Assembly: GCF_028583425.1 (NCBI RefSeq)
Contig: NC_072806.1
Location: 32,038,001 to 32,102,000 of the forward strand
Reading direction: 5' to 3'
DNA: 64,000 nucleotides
Origin: Eublepharis macularius
Lineage: Eukaryota; Chordata; Lepidosauria; Squamata; Eublepharidae
Both the position numbers and the translations under genes were made by a program. This document shows, piece after piece, positions 13,001-62,400 of the stretch (position 1 is its first letter; every line of letters starts with the position of its first letter). A model generated the notes under the pieces. It saw nothing but the letters and a program-made list of their open reading frames with translations. It searched no databases and was not told the origin of the DNA.

Positions 13001-16000
13001 AAACAGTTGGAGAGAGATTATTATCCCAGTTATTAGCAGACCATCTCTTGGCATTAACCCCAGTTATGGATGTACACAGGGCTTTTTTTCTGGGAAAAGA
13101 GGTGGTGGAACTCAGGACCGCACAATGATATCACTTTGGTTCGGCTGGAACAAGGAGGGAGTTTTTTAAAGTTTAAATTGCCCTCAGTTAAAATGGTCAC
13201 ATGGCCGGTGGCCCCGCCCCCTGATCTCCAGACAGAGGGTAATTTAGATCACCCTCTGGGCTGCTCCGGTGCGGAGGGCAATCTAAACTCCCCTCTGTCT
13301 GGCGATCAGGGGGCGGGGCCACCGGCCATATGACCATTTTCAAGAGGTGCCGGAACTCCATTCTACCATGTTCCCGCTGAAAAAAAGCCCTACATTTTCA
13401 GACGCCTTGATCCTGATTTGTTTGCTCCCCCTGCCATCTTTATGCATTTAATGCAAAAACAAGCATCAATTTAAACAGCAATAGTTCTGTTTACTGATAT
13501 TGCTGGGCAAGGGGAGAGCTGCAGTATCATGCGGGGGGGGGGGACCCAGTCTGGAACTGGGTTAATTTTCTAATCAAAACACTGTGGCTGTGAAATTTGA
13601 TAACATTTGTAATGTACCTTCACTAGCCTTGCCATATGAAGAGGACAGCCATCACGGGCCATCACGGGCACTCCCTGTCCCCCACTGGCTTTCAATAGAG
13701 TGGGGGGATGTCATAATGCAGTGCCACAACGTCACTTCTGACTAGGAAATTGGAGTGATATTGACACATTGCACAACACTCTAGGAATGCTCCCCGTCCA
13801 TATGGTTTTTATTACAGAGATCAGGGAAAGTCCTAGAATGCCGCACGATACAGATCACTTCCAGGTTCCTTAGCCAAATACCATCACGGTCTCGCACAAC
13901 ACCATTTTTTCCAAGTACCGTCCCCCAAAATCTCCCGCAGCTGATGGGCCAGGGTTGGCAACAACCCTCATGCTTGTCCTCCCCTCCCCCTCCACCTGCC
14001 CCTGCCCCTCTACTTCCTCAAAAAAGGAAGCAAATGTTTTGATGCCACCAATATGACCCACCTTAGGTCGGGCTCCACCCCACTAGCTGAAAGCCAGTGA
14101 TCTATTGGACTGTGGAGCTGTGTTCTCTGCAGCTAGAATTTGACCCTTCTGTCGTACCAGCCATGTGTTTGGCTCAGATGGAACTCAAAACCATCCAGCA
14201 AGGCCTCAGTTTGGCACAGGTTGGGTTGCTATAGAAGCAGCTTTACTACCTCGTATTAATTATATCTTTGAGCAAAAAACACTTTAAAGCAATCCACTCC
14301 TGTTCTTCAGGCCTTCTGCTGAAACAGAGTAAGCAATGACCTTTTGGTTGAGGGAGGAGGCATTGGGGCCAAATGTGACTCAGGTCCATATTCCCACGTT
14401 CTCACCACTACATCATTTGAGCTTGCAGTCACTGCAAACTCAGGTGAGGCTGTGACCCAGCAGGCTAACTGCAGACTGCTTTGGAGACTCTGGAATTTCT
14501 CAGCCTTGCTGTTTCAACCCTCAAATTACCATTTCAATGCAGTTTCTCAAGTGAGCAAATCAAGCCTGCTATTGTTTATTTCTGTGCCTTTTTCTGGTTC
14601 CTCACATCAATGCCCGTTTTTTCCCCATCAATTACATAAATGTGGCATTTAATATTCTTTTTCTTTGGATTTTTTTGGGCTGTACCCGTAAAATTATGTC
14701 TTCAAGTCTCTCCAAACAATGGGGAACATGGGGTTTTGTCTATGAAATTTCAAACGACATAATAATACTCACCATTATAGTCTCTCTAATGGCACAGCTC
14801 CTGTAGACTGTGAGCTAACCATACGGAACTGCAAAGCAGAATTTTCCTTGTAAATATTTTATCTTACTATATAAAAAGCAAGCCGTATTGACGATGACTC
14901 ACTTTTTATCCCTGTGCAGGCGCTATCTGTCCTGTGCAAGGATAAAGAGTAGTCACCAATACGGCTTGCATACGAGGGGCCGGGAGGTCTGGCATGCCCC
15001 TCCCAAGGCTCTGTAGCCGCCGCGGGAGGGCCCGCACTACTGCCCGGCACACAGGCAGGGAGGGCCGCACTCCTGTGCTGGCTTTCTTCGTCACTGCAGC
15101 AGCCTCCTTGGGGCTTTGGAGGGTTGTGCCACTGTAGCCACTGAGTCACCGGGGAGGCCAACCATACCAGCCTGGCCCTCAGCACGCCCCAAGCAGGCTG
15201 GGGTGTTGCAACGGGCCATGGAGTGCTCCTGCGCACCGCACCAGCCCAATTTCCACCTGTTTGAGGCCAAATTGGGCCAGTGCGGGGCACAGGAACGCTG
15301 CCAGGGCAGTGCAGCGGCCCCTAGAGTGCTCCTGTGCTCTGCACCAGCCTGATTTCTTCCCATTTGAAGCTGAATTAGGCCAGTGCAGAGCTCAGGAACG
15401 CTGTTAGGGTGGCGCATTGGGCCCTGGAGTGCTCCTGTGCTCTGCACCAGCCTGATTTCTTCCCATTTGAAGCTGAATTGGGCCAGTGCAGAGCTCAGGA
15501 ATGCTGTTAGGGTGGCGCATTGGGCCCTGGAGTGCTCCTGCGCTCTGCACCGGCCTGATTTTGGCCCATTTGAGGCCAAAATTGGGCTGCTGCAGAACGC
15601 AGGAACGCTGCTGGACCAGCACATGCCCTCACAACTTGGCCCCACTAGAACCTGTCGTATTGTTAAACACAATGGGCTTTGTTGCTAGTTTTCTATAATT
15701 TGTTTATTTAATCTTTCTTTAGATTCTCCTCATGTCTCTTATATTCAAACAAACCCAAAATAAATTTCACTACTGGGTCTGTAATAGCTAAATCGAAACC
15801 ACCAAGCAAAAGTTGGAGCTTTTTTTCTATAGGCATGTCTATATCGGGAACTAGCAGATCGATGAATTGTGCTCTTAATTGCTTATATCTTTGACAGAAG
15901 AATAAAACATGCTCCAGAGTTTCAATAGAGCCAGTTCCACATCCACATAAGCGCTCGGAGTAGCTTAGCGCAGTGGGAAGTACATTGAATCTGGCTAAGA

Positions 16001-31977: not shown

Positions 31978-32357
31978 ACTAAATATGAGGGAAAGTAAAG
32001 CTTTTCATGGCATGGAGGTAAATAACATCCCATTCATCTTTTATTCAGTCAGTTCTTTATTGCTATTCGGCCGAAGCCATAAGCCGTACAAACACCAACA
32101 AAATATAGACTGTACACTTTTGAACATACCCAATTCACAAGACACAGCTCAACATTGATCTTTTATTAGGAGAGCACAGGGCTTTTTTTCAGCTGGAACG
32201 CTGTGGAACAGAGTTCCGGGACCTCTTGAAAATGGTCACATGGCTGGTGGCCCCGCCCCCTGATCTCCAGACAGAGGGGAGTTGATGTATTGTCGAAGGC
32301 TTTCACGGCCGGAGAACGATGGTTGTTGTGGGTTTTCCGGGCTGTATTGCCGTGGTC

Positions 32358-32423
32358 TTGGCATTATAGTTCCTGACGTTTCGCCAGCAGCTGTGGCTGG
32401 CATCTTCAGAGGTGTAGCACCAA
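32358..32423 (-). ncRNA. Hammerhead-ribozyme-like motif, PLE 3' arm
   Basis: Minus-strand sense: TTGGTG...CCT, then CTGAAGA, a 7-bp stem II (TGCCAGC/GCTGGCG, one wobble), then GAAA, then CGTC with predicted cleavage after the C, then AGG...TGCCAA closing stem I around an internal loop. The minimal stem III (ACGT) fits what is known of PLE hammerheads. Seen directly: core and pairings. Inferred: activity. Confidence 0.75.
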
Positions 32424-32480
32424 AAGACAGAGATCTCTCAGTGTCACAGTGTGGAACAGATGTAGGTCCTTTGTATCTAC

Positions 32481-35060
32481 TCAGGAGGGGTGGGGTTGAG
32501 CTGAGTCATCCTGTAAGAGTTTCCCAGGGTGTGGAATGCTAATGGCGGGAGGCTTCACTGTATCCTGAGGAGGTTCTTTTGCATATGGATTGGTACTTGA
32601 TGTGCTAATCTTCTCTGCAGGGCTATTGTCAGGGATAGAATGTTTTGTTAGCCTGGTGTTTTTCAGAACTGGCAACCATGCTCGATTCATTCTTAAGGTT
32701 TCTTCTTTCCTGTTGAAGTTTTGTGTATGCTTGTGAATTTCAATGGCTTCCCTGTGCAGTCTGACAAAGTAGTTGGAAGTGTTGTCCAGTATTTTGGTGT
32801 CCTGGAATAAGATACTGTGCCCTGTTTGAGTTAGGCTATGTTCAGCCACTGCTGATTTTTCAGGTTGTCCAAGTCTGCAGTGTCTTTCATGTTCTTTTAT
32901 TCTTGTCTGGATGCTACGCTTTGTGGTCCCGATGTAAACTTGTCCACAGCTGCAGGGTATACGGTATACTCCTGCAGAGGTGAGGGGGTCTCTACTGTCT
33001 TTTGCTGATCGTAGCATCTGTTGTATTTTTCGGGTGGGTCTGAATACTGCTTGAAGGTTATGCTTTTTCATAAGCTTTCCCATCTGATCAGTAATTTCTT
33101 TGATATATGGCAAAAACACTTTTCCTGTGGGAGACTGTTTTTCTTTGGTTGTTTGATTCATCCTGGGTTTGATTGCTCTTCGGATTTCATTTCTGGAGTA
33201 GCCATTTGCCTGAAGTGCGTGGTTTAGATGATTAATTTCCTCATTGAGAAAGTGTGGCTCACATATCCGTCTTGCACGATCCACTAATGTTTTCATTATG
33301 CCTCTTTTTTGTCGGGGGTGGTGATTGGAGTTTTTGTGTAGGTACCGATCAGTGTGAGTTGGTTTCCTGTAGACCTTGTGACCTAACTGAAAGTTTGCTT
33401 TGCGGATGAACCAGGTATCCAGGAATGGGAGTTTTCCCTCGATTTCTTTCTCCATGGTGAATTGTATGTTCAGGTGTATGTTGTTGAGATGATTCAAAAA
33501 CCCCATCAATTCTTCCTCCCCATGGCTCCAAATGATAAATGTATCATCCACAAACCGGAACCATACACTAGGTTTGTGGGGTGCTGATTCTAGAGCTGTT
33601 TTTTCAAAATGTTCCATGTAGAAGTTTGCTATAACTGGGCTGAGTGGGCTCCCCATGGCCACCCCATCCATCTGTTCATAGAATTCGTTGTCCCATTGGA
33701 AGTAACTGGTTGTCAGGCAATGGTGGAATAAGGCTGTTACATCCTCTGGGAAAATCTGATTAATCAGTGCAATAGTGTCTTTTACTGGAACCTTGGTAAA
33801 GAGGGATACAACATCAAAACTGACAAGTATGTCTTGTGGATTGAGTTTCAGAGAACTGATTTTGTTGATGAAATCTGCTGAATCTTTGATGTAAGCCGAG
33901 GTTTTCCCGATGTGGTCCTGCAGGAGATCTGCCAGATGTCTAGCTAATTCATATGTCGGTGAACCAATGGCACTCACAATGGGTCGGAGTGGGACTGAAT
34001 CCTTATGTATTTTGGGGAGTCCATATAGTCTAGGTGGCTGTGCTTCAGTCTTGCATAGTTTTCTGTGCGTGTCGGGATGTAGTGAGGAATTCTTGATCAG
34101 CGCATTTGTTAGCCTGGTGATTTTGCAAGTGGGATCTCGTTTTAGTTTTTTGTAGGTGGAGGGGTCCAGGAGTTCTTTAATCTTCTTTTTGTATTCCTCT
34201 GTTTTCATGATCACTGTAGCATTGCCTTTATCAGCTGGTAGAATGATGATGTCTGGATCTGCATTGAGGGTCTTGATGGCATCTCTCTCCTTGCGTGTTA
34301 TATTGCTGGTGGGAAGCTTTGCCTTTCGTAGAATCCTGGCTGTCTCTCCTCTTATTTCCTCAGCTTCCTCTTCAGGTAGATGACGAATGGCAGCTTCTAC
34401 ATTTGCAATGATGTCTTCCACAGGAATTCTGGTGGGGGTGACTGCAAAGTTTCCTCCCTTTGCCAAGATGGAGGTTTCTTCTGGTGAGAGTTGACGGTCT
34501 GTCAGATTGATGACAATGCGTGCATTGTCGAGCATGGGGCTTGTCTGTCTTTTTTCCTGTAGTTTGTTAAACTTCTGCTTCTGTCTGGATGTGTGGTTGG
34601 TAAAAACTTGTTCCATCTTCCTGTAGGTGAGATTATCGACCTTGTCCCAATCCTGACTTCTCATTTTATGGCTGGTGTTGATATGCAAGCAAAATAGCTC
34701 CTTGTCTGTGGCAGCAAGTTCTCTGCGGGTAGTGTGGATTCTCTCACGTAAGAGGGCCTGTTCTAGACGGTCATAAATGCGGTTCGCCTGTGTGGTTTTG
34801 AAGATTCTTTTAGTTGTGAGAAAAGATGGAATAGTTCTTGTGTCCCTGCAGCGTAGAAGAAAGGTTAAAGAACAGAGTAGATGTGCTTTCTTGTTCCGAA
34901 GTGTTTCCAATCTCCGGGTCTGTTGGAATGTTTCCTCCCCGTAGAGGTTGTTGTGGGTTTTCCGGGCTGTATTGCCGTGGTCTTGGCATTGTAGTTCCTG
35001 ACGTTTCGCCAGCAAAAGCATAACCTTCAAGCAGTATTCAGACCCACCCGAAAAATACAA
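32481..35060 (-). CDS. PLE polyprotein: reverse transcriptase + GIY-YIG endonuclease
   Basis: Open for 859 codons. Motifs by residue of this frame: LPADKGN (274-280, PLE N-terminal signature), LPKIHK (348-353), FDVVSLFTKVP (415-425, catalytic Asp), GVAMGSPLSP (466-475), FVDD (503-506, catalytic Asp pair), KLPFLD (543-548), YRKPTHTDRYLHKNS (564-578), then the endonuclease GVYRIPCSCGQVYIGTTKRS (697-716) and KEH (722-724). The protein is expected to nick DNA and prime reverse transcription on the target. The first 38 or so codons are read from the terminal repeats, so the true start is downstream and uncertain. No frameshift or stop is seen in the body, so it may be functional or very recently so. 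Confidence 0.93.
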   Translation of the reverse strand: MYFSGGSEYCLKVMLLLAKRQELQCQDHGNTARKTHNNLYGEETFQQTRRLETLRNKKAHLLCSLTFLLRCRDTRTIPSFLTTKRIFKTTQANRIYDRLEQALLRERIHTTRRELAATDKELFCLHINTSHKMRSQDWDKVDNLTYRKMEQVFTNHTSRQKQKFNKLQEKRQTSPMLDNARIVINLTDRQLSPEETSILAKGGNFAVTPTRIPVEDIIANVEAAIRHLPEEEAEEIRGETARILRKAKLPTSNITRKERDAIKTLNADPDIIILPADKGNATVIMKTEEYKKKIKELLDPSTYKKLKRDPTCKITRLTNALIKNSSLHPDTHRKLCKTEAQPPRLYGLPKIHKDSVPLRPIVSAIGSPTYELARHLADLLQDHIGKTSAYIKDSADFINKISSLKLNPQDILVSFDVVSLFTKVPVKDTIALINQIFPEDVTALFHHCLTTSYFQWDNEFYEQMDGVAMGSPLSPVIANFYMEHFEKTALESAPHKPSVWFRFVDDTFIIWSHGEEELMGFLNHLNNIHLNIQFTMEKEIEGKLPFLDTWFIRKANFQLGHKVYRKPTHTDRYLHKNSNHHPRQKRGIMKTLVDRARRICEPHFLNEEINHLNHALQANGYSRNEIRRAIKPRMNQTTKEKQSPTGKVFLPYIKEITDQMGKLMKKHNLQAVFRPTRKIQQMLRSAKDSRDPLTSAGVYRIPCSCGQVYIGTTKRSIQTRIKEHERHCRLGQPEKSAVAEHSLTQTGHSILFQDTKILDNTSNYFVRLHREAIEIHKHTQNFNRKEETLRMNRAWLPVLKNTRLTKHSIPDNSPAEKISTSSTNPYAKEPPQDTVKPPAISIPHPGKLLQDDSAQPHPS

Positions 35061-35063
35061 CAG

Positions 35064-35600
35064 ATGCTACGATCAGCAAAAGACAGTAGAGACCCCCTCA
35101 CCTCTGCAGGAGTATACCGTATACCCTGCAGCTGTGGACAAGTTTACATCGGGACCACAAAGCGTAGCATCCAGACAAGAATAAAAGAACATGAAAGACA
35201 CTGCAGACTTGGACAACCTGAAAAATCAGCAGTGGCTGAACATAGCCTAACTCAAACAGGGCACAGTATCTTATTCCAGGACACCAAAATACTGGACAAC
35301 ACTTCCAACTACTTTGTCAGACTGCACAGGGAAGCCATTGAAATTCACAAGCATACGCAAAACTTCAACAGGAAAGAAGAAACCTTAAGAATGAATCGAG
35401 CATGGTTGCCAGTTCTGAAAAACACCAGGCTAACAAAACATTCTATCCCTGACAATAGCCCTGCAGAGAAGATTAGCACATCAAGTACCAATCCATATGC
35501 AAAAGAACCTCCTCAGGATACAGTGAAGCCTCCCGCCATTAGCATTCCACACCCTGGGAAACTCTTACAGGATGACTCAGCTCAACCCCACCCCTCCTGA
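35064..35600 (+). pseudogene. Inverted copy of the PLE C-terminus (GIY-YIG, 178 codons)
   Basis: The plus strand encodes the same residues as 682-859 of the minus-strand PLE frame, including GVYRIPCSCGQVYIG. It lacks the reverse transcriptase and is part of the 747-bp inverted arm. It is a duplicated fragment rather than an independent gene, although it remains open. Confidence 0.92.
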
Positions 35601-35657
35601 GTAGATACAAAGGACCTACATCTGTTCCACACTGTGACACTGAGAGATCTCTGTCTT

Positions 35658-35723
35658 TTGGTGCTACACCTCTGAAGATGCCAGCCACAGCTGCTGGCGA
35701 AACGTCAGGAACTACAATGCCAA
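35658..35723 (+). ncRNA. Hammerhead-ribozyme-like motif, PLE inverted arm
   Basis: CTGAAGA at 35672-35678, GAAA at 35699-35702, GTC at 35704-35706 (predicted cleavage after 35706). Stem II is TGCCAGC/GCTGGCG; stem I is CCT/AGG plus TTGGTG/TGCCAA with an internal loop. It is the mirror of the motif at 32358-32423. Confidence 0.75.
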
Positions 35724-35999
35724 GACCACGGCAATACAGCCCGGAAAACCCACAACAACCAGAGGGGAGTTGAGATTGCCCTCTGCTCCAGTGGCATGAA
35801 GGGCAATCTCAACTCCCCTCTGTCTGGAGATCAGGGGGCGGGGCCACTGGCCATGTGACCATTTTCAACGAGGGCGATTTAAACTTTAAAAAACTCCCCC
35901 CTTGTTCCAGCTGACCCAAAGTGACGTCATTGTGCAGTCCTGAGTTCTACCACTGAGTTCCACCACCTCTTTTCCCAGAAAAAAATCCCTGGCTTCCAG

Positions 36000-45762: not shown

Positions 45763-46064
45763 GAGATCAGCCGTGCCCCTCTGACAGAGGGCTTTTACAC
45801 CATGGGCAACCTGAGCCTCTGAACAGTTGTTGTCATGGACTGAACCTACTGTATGCAAAGTCCCTCTTCTTTCAGAGGTAGGGTACACGCTTTTAAACAG
45901 ATAGATTCTCTCTGATGATGGATAGGTTTTATACCTCTAGTTAGGCACTTGGTGATGGAGAGTGCCCTCAAGTCATAGCTGACTTATGGCGACCCCCTGG
46001 CAGGGTTTTCATGGCACGAGACTAACTGGCTTGCCCTTGCCTGCCTCTGCAACCTTTATGTAAG

Positions 46065-46883
46065 TTGGTTAATTGGTTAAACAACCAAGATACTAACATC
46101 CAGTTTACATGGAACTGTGACCAGAATTTCATTAACTTTTTGGACGTTACAGTATACAGAAATAGTAATAATAGGCTCTGTGTACGTCCTTATAGTAAAC
46201 CAACAGACTGCCACCCCTATTTAGAATACAACTCTTTCCACCCACCCCATTTGATAAGAAACATCCCTTATGGACAGTTATTAAGAATAAAAAGAAATTC
46301 TTCTACCACGGAGGATTACAATAAGGGCTGTCAGACACTGGCGAAACATTTTACTCAAAAGGGTTATCCAACTAGAATTATTGTCCAGGGAGTCCGTAGG
46401 AACACCTTAATAAATAAAAAAAGACAGGCTGCAAAAGAACGACTAACATGGGCCATGGACTATACTCCACTGTCGGGACAGATTAAGAAAATAGTCCATA
46501 AATACTGGCCATTACTTACTGAGATTCCAGGGTGCGAAAGGGAACCAGATATTGGCTATAGAAGAATCACTAATATCAAGGATATCCAGGTTCATTCAGC
46601 CTCACGGAGGATTGACCGGGAGGAGAGCCTAGTGGGTAGATTACCTCCCCCTAAGGGTACTTTTAGATGCGCACATTGCGCAGCATGTAAATATATGCTA
46701 CAGGGAAATTCTGTGGAACTAGGTAGTATCAATGTTAAGGTTCGCCTGAAACAACTTATCACATACCAAACCATGGGGGTGGTCTATTTGATTATATGCC
46801 TGTGCCCTAAATTATATGTGGGTAGCACTACGCATCCATTACGGGTACGGATTCTGGAACACGTATCAAGAATTAAAAATTGA
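46065..46883 (+). pseudogene. PLE reverse transcriptase C-terminus + GIY-YIG (Neptune-like), broken
   Basis: 272 codons: NFINFLDVTVYRN (thumb FLDV), YSKPTDCHPYLEYNS, NIPYGQLLRIKRN, then FRCAHCAACKYM (Cys-rich linker) and MGVVYLIICLCPKLYVGSTT (GIY-YIG). Upstream catalytic motifs, including the D-D pair, are missing because of 5' truncation. A TGA ends the frame inside the endonuclease, and homologous sequence continues after it in shifted frames (HFLDKKHN; RWIHSLNTMHPWGLNNEL). Not functional. Confidence 0.9.
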
Positions 46884-56400: not shown

Positions 56401-59400
56401 AGTTGTAAGATTTAAATGTACATTTGCAGGAATACAGGAAAAAGTCCCCCATCCCACACCACACAAAACCAGGAACAAGGTTTTGAGCATCTTATAATAA
56501 AGGTCAATCTTGCTGTCCCCATATTGCTGACGGAGTGGGACTGGCCCCTGAAAGAGAAGGCTTAATAATGATGCCATTTCCCTACCTTACTTCTTGTCTC
56601 CTCAGAGTAGCCTTTGGACAAGCCCAGTAATGTAACCCAGGGCTGTTATCCCCATAGTTCTTGTAACACAATCCTGCTGTGTAACCTCAGGAAAATATCC
56701 AAGAGCAGGGCTTTTTTTCAGCTGGAACACGGTGGAACGGAGTTCTGGCACGTCTTGAAAATGGTCACATGACCGGTGGCCCCACCTCAATCTCCAGAGG
56801 GGAGTTTAGATTGCCCTCCACGCAATTTGTCATACAGCTCTTGTTTCCTATTGCACTTCTATGCAAATTGTATTCCCATGAGAAAAGAGCAAGAGTCCAG
56901 TAGCACATACAAGACTAACAAAATTTGTGGTAGGGTATGAGCTTTCCTGAGTCACAGTATCTGAAGAAGTGAGCTGTGCTTCACAAAAGTTTATACCTTG
57001 CCACAAATTTTGGCAGTCTTATAGGTGCTGCTGTGATATCTGAAGAAGTGAGCTGTGATTCAGGAAAGCTCATACCCTACCACAAATTTTGTTAGTCTTA
57101 TAAGTGCTCCTGGACTCTTGCTCTTTTCTACTGCTACAGGCAGACTAACACCGCTACCCATCTTGATCTATCTGGATGTATAACGCTTGACGTGGAAAGA
57201 CCCATTACGTTAAAAACTCGCGTCTCTTAGTGCAGCGAAACTCAGCTCAACCTGGCGGAAACGGCACCTCCGCTGCCCGAGGCGGACCTTCGCCTTAGGC
57301 GGACACACGCAGCCCGCTTTTACCACTCTCATGGCGCCTACAGCCCCAACCGGAAGTCATAGGGCACCGTTATTTTCTTTCACCCTTACCTCTATGATGA
57401 TGACGTACGAAAGGAACGGCCCTCCCCTCTCCTTCGCTCTCCCCCAATCGTAGCCTCCCATTGGCTGCGCACAGCACTAATTGATTGACTGATTGACTGG
57501 TCGGAGACCGACTTCCCTCCCCCGCGCGCCGCCAAGTCCCCTCTCGCCGCCGCACCCGCCGAGTCTCGCCCGCTCTCGCGAGAGCCGCGTTTGAAATGGC
57601 GGCGGGCGCGCTGGCAGCCCGACGGCGGAGGGAGCCTCGAGCGAAGCGGCCTTGGCGCGCCTGAGGAGAGGCAGGGCCCGCCCGCCCGCCGGCCTGCCCG
57701 CCGGCTTCCGGCCTGCGCTTCGCTTCCCCGCCCCCTCCGGATGGAGAGGCGCCAGCCGCGGCTGCTGAGGACCTACGCGGGGCAGCGGGGCCTCCGCGGA
57801 AAGGCGGGCGGAGGCCGGGCCGGGCTGAGGCGGGTGCTGCCGGCCGCGCCCTGGATCTCGCCCCAGCTCGACCCGCGGCGCTACTTCAGCAGCACCAGCT
57901 CCTCGGGGGGCGTCTCCTCGCCCTCCTCCCTCGACGACCCGGACTTCCTGCCGCCCAGCCCGCGGCGCCGCCAGCCCGGCCGGAGGGCCAAGAAGGGGGC
58001 CAAGGAGAACCGGGCCCCGTCAAAGGGCCGAGACGCCTGCCTGCCGACCACCCCGCAGCTCAGGCACGTCACCCAGCGCCCGCGCCCGCAGGCCCAGAAG
58101 AGGACCAGCCTTCGGCTGCGGCCCCCCTTGGTCTGCAGCACCCCCCAGCTGCCCCTGTCGACCGTGAAAAGCAACCTGAGGGAGGAGAGCCCGGTAGGGG
58201 ACAAACCGTCGGCCTCATGCTGCTGCTGCTGCAGCCCTCCTAGTGGGCAGGAAGTCTGGAGGGAGGACAGAGGCTCCCCCTGCGATGTGCTCCAGGAGTT
58301 GAGCTTGATGAATATGGATGGGGATGGCGACCAGCAGAACACCGCAGGCAGCCTGGAGCTCTTCACCCACCAAGATGCAGGGCGCCCACTGTGTGAGTGC
58401 CCTCACAGGGGTCCCCCGATACAAACTCCATCCACGCCAACGTCCCGTTGTGGCTTCAGGCCGTCTTCCTGCAGGCTCTTTCAAGACCACTTTGCCTCGC
58501 GCTCGCATAACATCTGTAGCAAGGCAGAAGCCCCTCTCACAGGCGAGGGAGAACTTCCAATGTCGCCAAATGATGCTGTCTCTCTCCCAGGTCAGGGCTC
58601 TTGCCTTCAAGATGCTGATCAGGATCATCCCACAAAACTGTCAGTGTCATCAAAGGCCCTTGTGACACCGAGCCCACTGCAGGGAGCTTGCCGGTTACAA
58701 GCCATTGTGTGTGATGGAAAGGTTGCCCTCTCTTTGCCAAAAGGGACAGAGCCTCTGGAGAACAAGAGGCAGCAGATCTTGGTTCAAGAGAGTATCACAC
58801 CGTATCAAAGAGCAGGTGGTCTAAATGGAGTTCTCTCTGAAGAAGGAAGTGACTTCAGCCTGGCTGAAAACAACCCTCAGCTTCAGCCTGTTGTGATCCT
58901 GGACAATCAAGTGGTACCAAACTGGTTGGCCAGTAAGTCTACTGGAAAACAAGCAGTGGGCATGCTGCAGAAAAAAGATTCCCCTTGTGCCATTCCTGGA
59001 ATGTCTGACGCTACAAGCAGCAGTCAGGTGGTCCCCACCTATGGGGAAGGAGCCACTGGTAGAAAAGCTTGTATCAGTGGACTCAGTTCCAGACGGTGGG
59101 GGCAACGAGCCAAACCTGGGCAGTTAAAGCACAAGAAGAATACAGGTTGGAAACAACATGCCGATGCCTCCCTCCTTCAGGACCATCTGAAATGGAATGA
59201 GATGGAAGATAATCTGGCTTTCTCCTCCTTGCTTCCAGATAGCTCCTCCGTCAAGAATTCCAGCTTGTGGCGCAGGATTCGAGCCTCTTTGTCCCTCCAC
59301 AAGAAAAAGAAAATTCTGTCCGAGGCTGAAAGTTTTAATAACAGCATGCTGAGCACTTCATCCCCCAAATCCATCCCTGCAGGGACACCCAAGACCCCGT

Positions 59401-62400
59401 TCACTAAAAAACTTGGGTATTCTATTTGTCCTTCCTCTTCTATGGTCCTGCTGTCATCCATGAAGTCTTTTTCCGTAGCAGAGGTGATGCTGACAGATGC
59501 AGAAAAAGTGTATGGGGAGTGCCAACAAGAAGGTCCCATTAGCTTCGAGGAATGTATCCCCCCAGAGAAAATGCAAAAATGCGAGAAAATTGGAGAGGGG
59601 GTATTTGGAGAGGTTTTCAGAACAGATGGTGAGAAAGGAGCCGTGGCTTTGAAAATAATTCCTATTGAAGGGACCGTCCGAGTCAATGGAGAAGCTCAGA
59701 AGACCTTCAGCGAGATTTTACCAGAGATCATCATTTCAAAAGAACTCAGTCTTTTGGCTGAAGAGGAGGTCAACCAAACTTCTGGGTTTATTAGCTTGTA
59801 TTCTGTACACTGTGTGCAAGGAGCCTACCCTGAACATCTCCTGAAAGCCTGGGATGACTACCACAGGCTGAGAGTGTCTGAAAATGATAGGCCGGATTTC
59901 TTTGCAGACCAGCAGCTCTTCATGATCCTGGAGTTCGAGTTTGGTGGCACTGACCTGGAGAACATGAGCAACCGGCAGCTGAACTCTGTACTTGTAGCCA
60001 AAAGCATCTTAAGCCAAGTCACTGCTTCTTTGGCTGTGGCGGAGGAAGCGTTGCAATTTGAGCACCGAGACCTGCACTGGGGGAACGTGCTTGTTAAGAA
60101 AACAACCTTGAAGGAGCTGCGTTTTAAGCTGAGAGGGGAAAGCCGTACCGTTCCCACTCAAGGATTCCTTGTGAACATCATAGACTACACCTTTTCCAGG
60201 CTGGAGAAAGATGGCCTCACGGTGTACTGTGACCTGTCCACTGATGAAGAAGTGTTCCAAGGAAGAGGGGACTATCAGTTTGACATTTACAGGCAGATGA
60301 GAGAGGAAAACTTGAACAGCTGGGCTGACTATTTCCCCCACAGCAATATCTTGTGGCTTCACTACCTAGCAGACAAACTTTTGAAAGAGGTGTCTTACAG
60401 AAAGAAGCCCACATCTGCCTCCATGAGGCAGGTGCAGAAACAGCTTGAGTTGTTCTCTAAAGAGGTTCTTGGCTTCTGTTCTGCCACAGAACTGTTGAAC
60501 ACGGGCACATTCTTCCGCTGACTGAGGTGGGCTGTGGGGTCCATATTGGAACCAGTTGCCACAGGACGTGTTTTCCAAACCAACAATAGCAACCACAGTG
60601 TTACATTTTTATGTATATAGTCATACAGGATATATGGCAAATAAACAGCAAGAATGGAACATTTCATTTCCTAGTTTGATTGATTTATATTATTGACTGA
60701 TTTCAGCCTAGATATGCACTTACAAAGATAACTTTGCTTTCAGCAAATTCAAAAAAATATGATATTTTGTTTCCTAAACAGCGGCTTACTTATAATAAAA
60801 AGAATATTGCTACTTGCTGTCATATCTCTGTCACTTCAAATCTTAGAACATTTAACCTGACAAATTATTTTAGTAAGAATTTATTTGATGCTTAACCAGT
60901 CTTTTGTAGAAACTAGATAATGTATTCTGGCCTATGGCCAGAACAAATAACATTTTTATTACTACTTTATATTATTTTTAGTACTCCTTTAGTTCCTTAT
61001 CTGTGTGCTCTGCCTTGCATCTTTATTGATCTTTAATGGTTTTTTGTCTGTAATGGGTACATTATAGAATGTCCAGAAATAGTTTTTGGGTCCAGAAGTA
61101 GTCTTAACTAAAATCTAGAAGCATCTAGGGTAACACCAGCCTGGCCTTATAATGTCACAGTCCTTGTGGCCATTTGAGGGCTGTGCTCCCTTGGGTATGC
61201 CTACTGTCATGTACTTTTGGAGAAGAGGAGACAGCCCCCCTCCACAGCTCCACATCAGCATGTTGTAAGCATTTCTCACCATCAATGATATTAAAAGAGA
61301 GCCACATCTCCAGGGTCTAGGTGGGGCCATGGCAGTTCTCTGAATGAGTATGGGACAGTAAGTCATGCAGGAGATGTTACGAATTCCCTGCAAAGAGAAA
61401 AACCAGGCTGCAGAGCCTTTCTCCCTGTTATGCTAGATTTCTCTTTGCAGGAAACGTTTATTAGCACAGAGATTCAAAGCTGCCATCCATCACTTGCTGT
61501 CTTAAGTAGCCCAGTTCGTTGTACTGTAGTGAAGCTTTGTCACTTCACTGTCCTGCATGTGTGAACCAGGCCCCTGTTCGTCTGCATCACTGGTGAAGCA
61601 CTTTTCCTATGACAAGAGGTTAAAAAATCTGGGACTTTTCAAAGTCTACTGAGGGGTGACAAGATAGGGGTTTATAAAATTATGCATGGGTTAGTGAAAG
61701 TGGTCAGAGAGAACTTTGTCCTCTGTCTCCTAACACTAGAATGAAGTCGATGGGCAGCAGAGTCAAGATAGGCAAAAGGAAATAAGTATTTACTTAAGAG
61801 AGTAATTAAATTATGGAATTCACCCCCGGTGGATGTAGTGATGGTTATAAGCATAGATGGCTTTAAAAACAGATTGGAGGAGAGGTCCAGCGATTGCTAA
61901 CAGGGTGAGTTGAGGAAACCACCATCTTCTGAGGTAGTGCTGGGAGGCACACCTCAAGGGAAGGTGCCCTCTGTGCTTGTTTGGCCCTCCAGCAGGTAAC
62001 TATTGTGTTAGACGAGATGCTGGACTAGATCAACTACTAGTGTGATCCTGCTGGGCTCTTCACATGTTCTTATTGCTGCACAGCACTAGATTAGAATACT
62101 TTTGACTCTAAGGGTCAAGCCAGAAGTGACGAATTACACTTGAATGGCAAGTGAACAGACTCATGTGTATTCCTCCCTGTTCACTACGTGATCAAGTGGA
62201 ACGCAAGGGAACAGGGAGGAATACATGTGAGTCTCTTCACTTGCCATTCAAGTGTAATGCGTCACTTCTAGCTCGGCCCTATGTTGCAATTGAACATTTA
62301 GTGATGGGTCAAATGATAGAGGGTTGGGGTTTTAACTTGGGAAGGGGACAATGTTAAAAATGTAGGCTTAAATGTGTTTCAGGTTCTAAATTGTGATTTG

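Follow-up and report, generated by a model that had tools for sequence, protein, structure and literature searches.

How does a retroelement come to lie in a chromosome as two copies of itself, joined head to head and enclosed by a single target-site duplication (TSD)? The question is raised by a stretch of 64,000 nt from the gecko Eublepharis macularius (NC_072806.1, positions 32,038,001 to 32,102,000), which is called the window below. Penelope-like elements (PLEs) are a telomerase-related third class of eukaryotic retroelements, and the element in the window is, to judge from its coding sequence, a PLE of the Penelope/Poseidon clade that is nearest to the PLEs of Anolis. The evidence set out here makes it probable that this Poseidon-type element, which is like PAc of Anolis, is inserted via two-sided target-primed reverse transcription, usually of one shared RNA.

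A sequence-only reading of the window had placed a PLE at 32286-35760, and these limits turned out to be those of one insertion bracketed by a perfect 14-bp TSD. Beyond that account, the insertion was found to hold an inverted arm (35015-35760) and a tail of 34/35 nt, which is present at the left end and absent from the right, as well as the TSD itself. Both arms have their 3' ends outward, and both pseudo-long terminal repeats (pLTRs) form outer ends that point away from the open reading frame (ORF). The inverted arm has 748 nt in common with 32320-33067. Since these arms differ at 2 sites, the insertion is judged to be young. With a rate near 1e-9 per site per year in order of magnitude, such a difference would put the age at no more than a few million years; gene conversion between the arms could give too young a look.

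The same architecture was read at many other places in the E. macularius assembly (2.237 Gb, 72 contigs, N50 145,573,841, L50 6). A search with the whole element gave 4,737 first-look candidates, of which 39 were scored, with 194 matches. Set 1 comprised the window, 20 of the other 38 clusters from this search, and then five more such clusters. Set 2 comprised 36 of the 40 matches of a 195-base query containing the tail, the remaining four falling in set-1 clusters. Every two-armed insertion with a TSD had one tail end (ORF nt ~118) and one tailless end (ORF nt ~84), in 45 cases out of 45. The two positions lie 34 nt apart, and the tail is 34 nt long, within the 30-40 nt of the optional tail that characterizes the clade. 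The TSDs of the 45 measured 11-17 bp with a mode of 12 (21/45); a TSD was the condition of entry, and the side of the tail and the endpoints of the arms were transcribed manually from the mapped structures. Were each end chosen independently, the chance of this outcome would be at best 0.5 per insertion and 1.5e-8 for the 26 insertions of set 1 alone. Set 2 was conditioned on one tail and so tests the other end only; it was made up of 20 clean two-armed insertions with a TSD, L068, seven single-armed insertions, L037 and seven unresolved places.

A third set was free of any choice by length or tail. It consisted of the first 100 listed occurrences of a 30-base PLE end (GCAATACAGCCCGGAAAACCCACAACAACC) on contig C1, between 1.3 and 12.0 Mb. 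Head-to-head pairs numbered 23, against 2 oppositely arranged neighbours within 5 kb. By exact match, one tail was found in 20 of the 23 pairs, none in three and two in no pair, where independence would lead to an expectation of about 3 two-tail, 11 one-tail and 9 no-tail pairs. When the three pairs that lacked an exact tail were read, each proved to have one tail with a point change, a tailless other end and a TSD by eye. Seven of the 23 pairs have a spacing of 154 nt, and four apparently lie in a duplicated block with mirrored spacings. Because spacings are common to pairs and because of this apparent block, the independent events are fewer, perhaps 16.

Several places were left out of the 45. 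Discordant ends were also seen at L027b (TSD of 14 bp), at L078 and L083-L085 (TSD by eye), and at 6 + 3 further pairs judged from match listings alone. L080 had no TSD, and L041, L053, L057, L060, L061, L062 and L066 were unresolved. L068 is a nested or abutting pair of very short head-to-head insertions, both of which have a single tail opposite a tailless end, and its outer ends are discordant.

The two arms of one insertion are much alike. Over 38 comparisons, drawn from 34 insertions with L037 among them, they differed at 91 of 34,343 sites (0.26%), where the median divergence from other insertions was 1.4%, and the partner arm was among the nearest 5% in 35 of the 38 comparisons and nearest or tied in 28, from which it follows that the arms of one insertion share a source. 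In the length-unselected set, the endpoints of the two arms lay within 30 template nt of each other in 7 of 20 insertions, where 0.85 were expected (permutation p 5e-5, the smallest attainable; rank correlation 0.73). Two of these seven (L036 and L052) depend on short inner fragments; when such junction fragments are ignored, agreement is found in 5 of 20 (0.81 expected, p 7e-4, correlation 0.66). The arms therefore tend to end at a common template position, as if both had reached the 5' end of a single RNA and run off it. At the junctions, the microhomology of the target primer with the RNA start averaged 1.73 and 1.29 nt, but the shuffle null ignores chance extension at the TSD edge and is too lax, and the microhomology is taken as a hint only. 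Tandem units within an insertion differed at 11 of 5,811 sites and inverted arms at 49 of 17,086, some insertions entering more than one comparison. Circular RNA templates would fit tandem units that are as alike as inverted arms; recent identical tandem sources fit that likeness too.

In the mechanism proposed, the GIY-YIG enzyme would cut both target strands ~12-14 bp apart and leave 3' overhangs. Each target 3' end would prime one cDNA on the PLE RNA, one beginning at ORF nt ~118 and keeping the tail, the other beginning at ~84 and lacking it. The cDNAs would then extend toward each other until they are joined, so that two copies lie head to head, each with its 3' end facing outward, and fill-in of the overhangs would give rise to the TSD. 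Both reverse transcriptions would usually take place on one RNA molecule, with one enzyme at each start site. We infer the polarity of the overhangs and the order of the steps, and also the single shared RNA, the last because no clean case has the same start at both ends and because the two arms come from a common source and, in some insertions, have a common template 5' end. For the window copy, a tail-bearing cDNA of 2,660 nt would have jumped back to the tailless site and added 69 nt before it met the tailless cDNA of 746 nt. The 69-nt segment at 34946-35014 does start at the tailless site, which suggests that it was made by a template jump to the start site. A stricter form of the proposal is coupled double target-primed reverse transcription, in which one RNA held by a dimer would be copied twice at once from starts 34 nt apart, each cDNA being primed by one 3' overhang. 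It is put forward tentatively, with somewhat less than an even chance of being right.

The main rival also has two-sided priming, but on two separate RNAs, with an asymmetric protein dimer that assigns the tail site and the tailless site to different subunits. An Anolis PLE protein has been modelled as a dimer (accessible part of PMC11167929), the start-site rule of 45 in 45 would follow equally, and the arms need have only the same source locus in common. This reading has no account of its own, however, of arms that end close together on the template, as they do in 7 of 20 insertions (5 on the stricter count), and the contacts of the published dimer are described as symmetrical, as far as the same excerpt goes. 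It is regarded as unlikely, though worth keeping in view.

A number of observations weigh against two-sided priming on a shared RNA. Single-armed insertions occur, eight of them tail-bearing and with a TSD no shorter than 10 bp (L026, L038, L049, L058, L059, L063, L065 and L067) and one without a tail (L079, TSD by eye); all were left out of the 45. Since such insertions exist, two-sided priming is not obligatory, and either start site can also work without the other. L037, also left out, is the only locus read that has two tails. It lacks a TSD, and its arms diverge by 3.4%, 80 of the 81 other pieces being closer than that; it is therefore read as two events. Exact tail starts follow only 9,098 of the 23,501 end 30-mers in the genome and stand at only 17 of 54 unpaired places among the first 100 ends. 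The genome-wide total neither shows nor refutes the rule, as point changes, internal copies, and single-armed and secondarily copied ends are mixed into it. In the long-copy set (26 insertions among the copies chosen by best score) no endpoints coincide and the arm lengths are anticorrelated (Spearman -0.67); the choice of long copies would itself produce this, and the set gives no support to shared-RNA priming either. The shared RNA is deduced rather than seen directly. Lastly, in the Anolis work in vitro the strands were not seen to differ in start site (available portion of PMC11167929).

Self-priming or fold-back, in which a single cDNA (or, as suggested for Adineta vaga, an antisense RNA) folds and copies itself into an inverted arm, is very improbable here. 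It is the published explanation of head-to-head palindromic junctions (PMC3846280, in the part available), near-palindromic junctions were found in 7 of 20 insertions, and the short inverted inner pieces of L036 and L052 may be small junction fold-backs. However, a copied-back arm cannot outgrow the arm that served as its template, and in 15 of 26 insertions of the long-copy set and 13 of 20 of the length-unselected set it is the tailless arm that is longer, the tail arm being longer in the other 11 and 7. As the longer arm is not fixed, neither arm is simply copied from the other. A first strand that bears the tail should moreover yield two tails, and not one of the 45 clean insertions has two. 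The arm lengths and the tail rule thus contradict fold-back as a general mechanism in the gecko family.

The sequence-only reading had seen in the window an intact copy whose frame has no stop or shift. It is scarcely credible that this copy is intact and potentially autonomous, although it has a long open frame with catalytic motifs and very young arms. Compared with one natural genomic copy, ORF nt 1-14, which include the native ATG, are absent, and compared with other genomic copies ORF nt ~84-127 (44 nt) are deleted out of frame. About 821 codons of the frame are native; codons ~1-17 lie inside the inverted partial copy, and the next ~23 read the start of the element in the wrong frame, so that the first ~40 are non-native. 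The sole in-frame ATG ahead of codon 135 is at 35021, within the inverted arm. The frame stays open only because the out-of-frame start sequence reads on into the inverted copy, and in view of the 5' truncation, the deletion and the lost start its length is partly an accident of the junction. An autonomous copy would have a complete ORF with a start codon and a pLTR upstream; in the window there is no pLTR upstream, and those present face away from the ORF. Lacking both start codon and upstream pLTR, the copy was probably dead on arrival in spite of its coding sequence for reverse transcriptase (RT) and endonuclease. Least likely of all is that two independent insertions landed side by side, that an inversion came later, or that the assembly is at fault: palindromes are hard to assemble and abutting or nested insertions are known (L068, L037), but one TSD surrounds both arms in 45 of 45 insertions (by the condition of entry), in 28 of 38 comparisons no other piece is closer to an arm than its partner arm, and the architecture recurs across chromosomes with differing flanks, lengths and junctions.

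Table 1. Positions of the parts of the PLE insertion and of its target within the window.
Feature	Positions	Strand	Remark
Left TSD, CAGAGGGGAGTTGA	32272..32285	+	Perfect 14-bp repeat
Right TSD, first base common with the element end	35760..35773	+	Perfect 14-bp repeat
Tail-bearing arm, 2,660 nt; apparent cDNA from the tail site (ORF nt ~118), 3' to 5', down to ORF nt ~128; RT and GIY-YIG coding	32286..34945	-	
Tail (ORF nt ~84-118 of the following unit), confined to this outer end	32286..32320	-	Position agrees with 111-118 nt in the accessible part of PMC11167929
Native part of the frame, ~821 codons and stop; RT motifs, GIY-YIG-type endonuclease	32481..34945	-	
Open frame of 861 codons, first ~40 chimeric (inverted arm and out-of-frame ORF start)	32481..35066	-	
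Hammerhead ribozyme-like core (CTGAAG ATG ... GAAAC GTC) over the start codon, 3' pLTR	32375..32409	-	Layout as in the accessible part of PMC11167929
Segment of 69 nt, tailless site (ORF nt ~84) to ORF nt 15; 44 nt lost between it and the tail-bearing arm	34946..35014	-	
Tailless arm, 746 nt; part of the element in inverted orientation (C-terminal coding and pLTR), outer end at ORF nt ~83-84, without tail	35015..35760	+	
Second hammerhead ribozyme-like core, pLTR of the tailless arm	35672..35706	+	
Host target, left arm of a foldback repeat split by the PLE	32226..32285	+	Partner at 35809-35868

That the element is a PLE with RT and GIY-YIG in one frame was borne out. The 861-codon frame carries the motifs PADKGN, LPKIHK, FDVVSLF, GVAMGSPLSP, FVDD and KLPFLD, and Pfam recognizes its RT domain (RVT_1, E=1e-11). 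Its C-terminus, in the same ORF as the RT, is of GIY-YIG type (GVYRIPCSCGQVYIGTTKR); the near-invariant columns GVY...VYIG, R and E/H are kept in an alignment of 14 PLE proteins, and PF01541 (GIY-YIG) was not reported by Pfam for this protein. Among the matches listed, the closest database protein is LOC134299269 of Anolis carolinensis, with 73% identity over 90% of the frame. The RT phylogeny called for by the sequence-only reading (36 rows: the window and 35 proteins picked out of 120 listed matches) groups the window with three Anolis proteins at a support of 100/100. In a profile search of solved structures, 13 matches had an E of 0.01 or less; they are RTs of bacterial type, including group II intron-like, retron and DRT2 ones, and no PLE by name was among them. 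An Rfam scan of the whole window at the gathering threshold, and of 32200-32600 at a relaxed one, reported no hammerhead; the letters and layout of the cores fit the published description (PMC11167929, as far as available), a likeness by sequence without an Rfam match. A scan for viral contigs found no relative.

The family appears to have been active recently, as was proposed from the sequence: besides the two differences between the window arms, separate insertions diverge by a mean of 1.16% (over 759 pairs of pieces), and the 30-base end occurs exactly 23,501 times in the genome (reversed control 0), 9,098 times with ten tail bases added. These counts take in internal pLTRs and secondary duplicates. 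The native unit is 2,669 nt long, with 78 nt from the stop to the next ATG, and pLTRs, tandem or partial-tandem units and inverted copies are present among the insertions. The proposal that intact copies are uncommon fails in this gecko, where the full native frame (MPATAAGETSGT..., 863 codons with ATG) is present in 14 of 21 copies (the window and the 20 best-scoring, longest piece of each). In other squamates PLEs can be scarce; a published table gives them 0.01% of the bearded dragon genome (PMC12360841, seen in excerpt).

Other observations concern single copies and places. L078 (C6:10225900-10226290) is a tiny two-armed insertion in which a tail-bearing cDNA of 79 nt is followed by a jump to just past the tailless start, much as in the window. 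The pair spaced by 154 nt recurs on contig C1, and the junction of one such pair, L083, occurs 26 times in the genome, nine of them within C1:4.8-8.6 Mb. Same-strand PLE ends ~9.6-9.8 kb apart also recur, and some PLE ends look as if they travel within another repeat or a duplication. The host foldback repeat split in the window, which is older than the insertion, has inverted arms of 60 nt and 23 nt (32226-32285 / 35760-35868), and its choice as a target in a hairpin may or may not be due to chance. Elsewhere in the window, a 285-aa frame at 46026-46883 (+) belongs to a second, far more distant PLE-like element (~21-43% identity to PLE proteins by tblastn; GIY-YIG under the Pfam cut-off). An uninterrupted frame of 1010 codons at 57489-60521 (+) holds a haspin kinase domain (PF12330, 5e-75) and is apparently a single-exon haspin gene, and four 103-bp tandem repeats lie at 15197-15612.

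The closest of the known systems is PAc (Poseidon_Ac) of Anolis carolinensis, to whose family LOC134299269 probably belongs. According to the accessible part of PMC11167929, the ORF starts in a hammerhead-like motif with a cut site 26 nt past the start codon, and the tail spans the stretch from one RT start site to the other, of which the outer lies at ORF nt 111-118. The gecko element agrees with this layout, with the outer site at 118; species and sequence are different. The same part reports that the purified Anolis enzyme has two RT start sites in vitro and cuts and extends both strands. The gecko end positions (~84 and 118) correspond to these two start sites, which supports two-sided priming. 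That each insertion uses one site of each kind was not found stated in that part of the paper, nor in the literature searched, outside of which lay most subscription papers and the PLE surveys of 2006 and 2021, which may state the rule.

The Penelope families of Adineta vaga (Pen2a_Av and others) include head-to-head copies in which the TSDs measure 8-10 bp and one of the inverted pLTRs carries a tail, and the inverted copies were ascribed to self-priming (PMC3846280, available part). There the copies are few, whereas the gecko has thousands; its TSDs have a mode of 12, and each two-armed insertion that was read and had a TSD bore a tail at one end and not at the other. This pairing of the two start sites with the two ends, seen in young insertions of a single chromosome-scale genome, leads to predictions that can be counted, explains why the tail is 'optional' and argues against self-priming of inverted copies. 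Work on PLEs in vitro reaches the cutting and first extension of each strand, short of the completion of integration. The gecko family also offers a large natural data set, in which the two arms of an insertion form an internal clock much like pairs of long terminal repeats (LTRs). In twin priming of LINE-1, a long interspersed nuclear element (LINE), two primed cDNAs are joined head to head inside one TSD as an occasional by-product. In the gecko, by contrast, the joining of two cDNAs is common, and it involves two different starts at fixed, neighbouring positions. If the coupled form of the proposed mechanism is true, PLE integration would be two-ended by design, unlike both the one-strand priming of LINEs and the integrase-made insertion of LTR elements.

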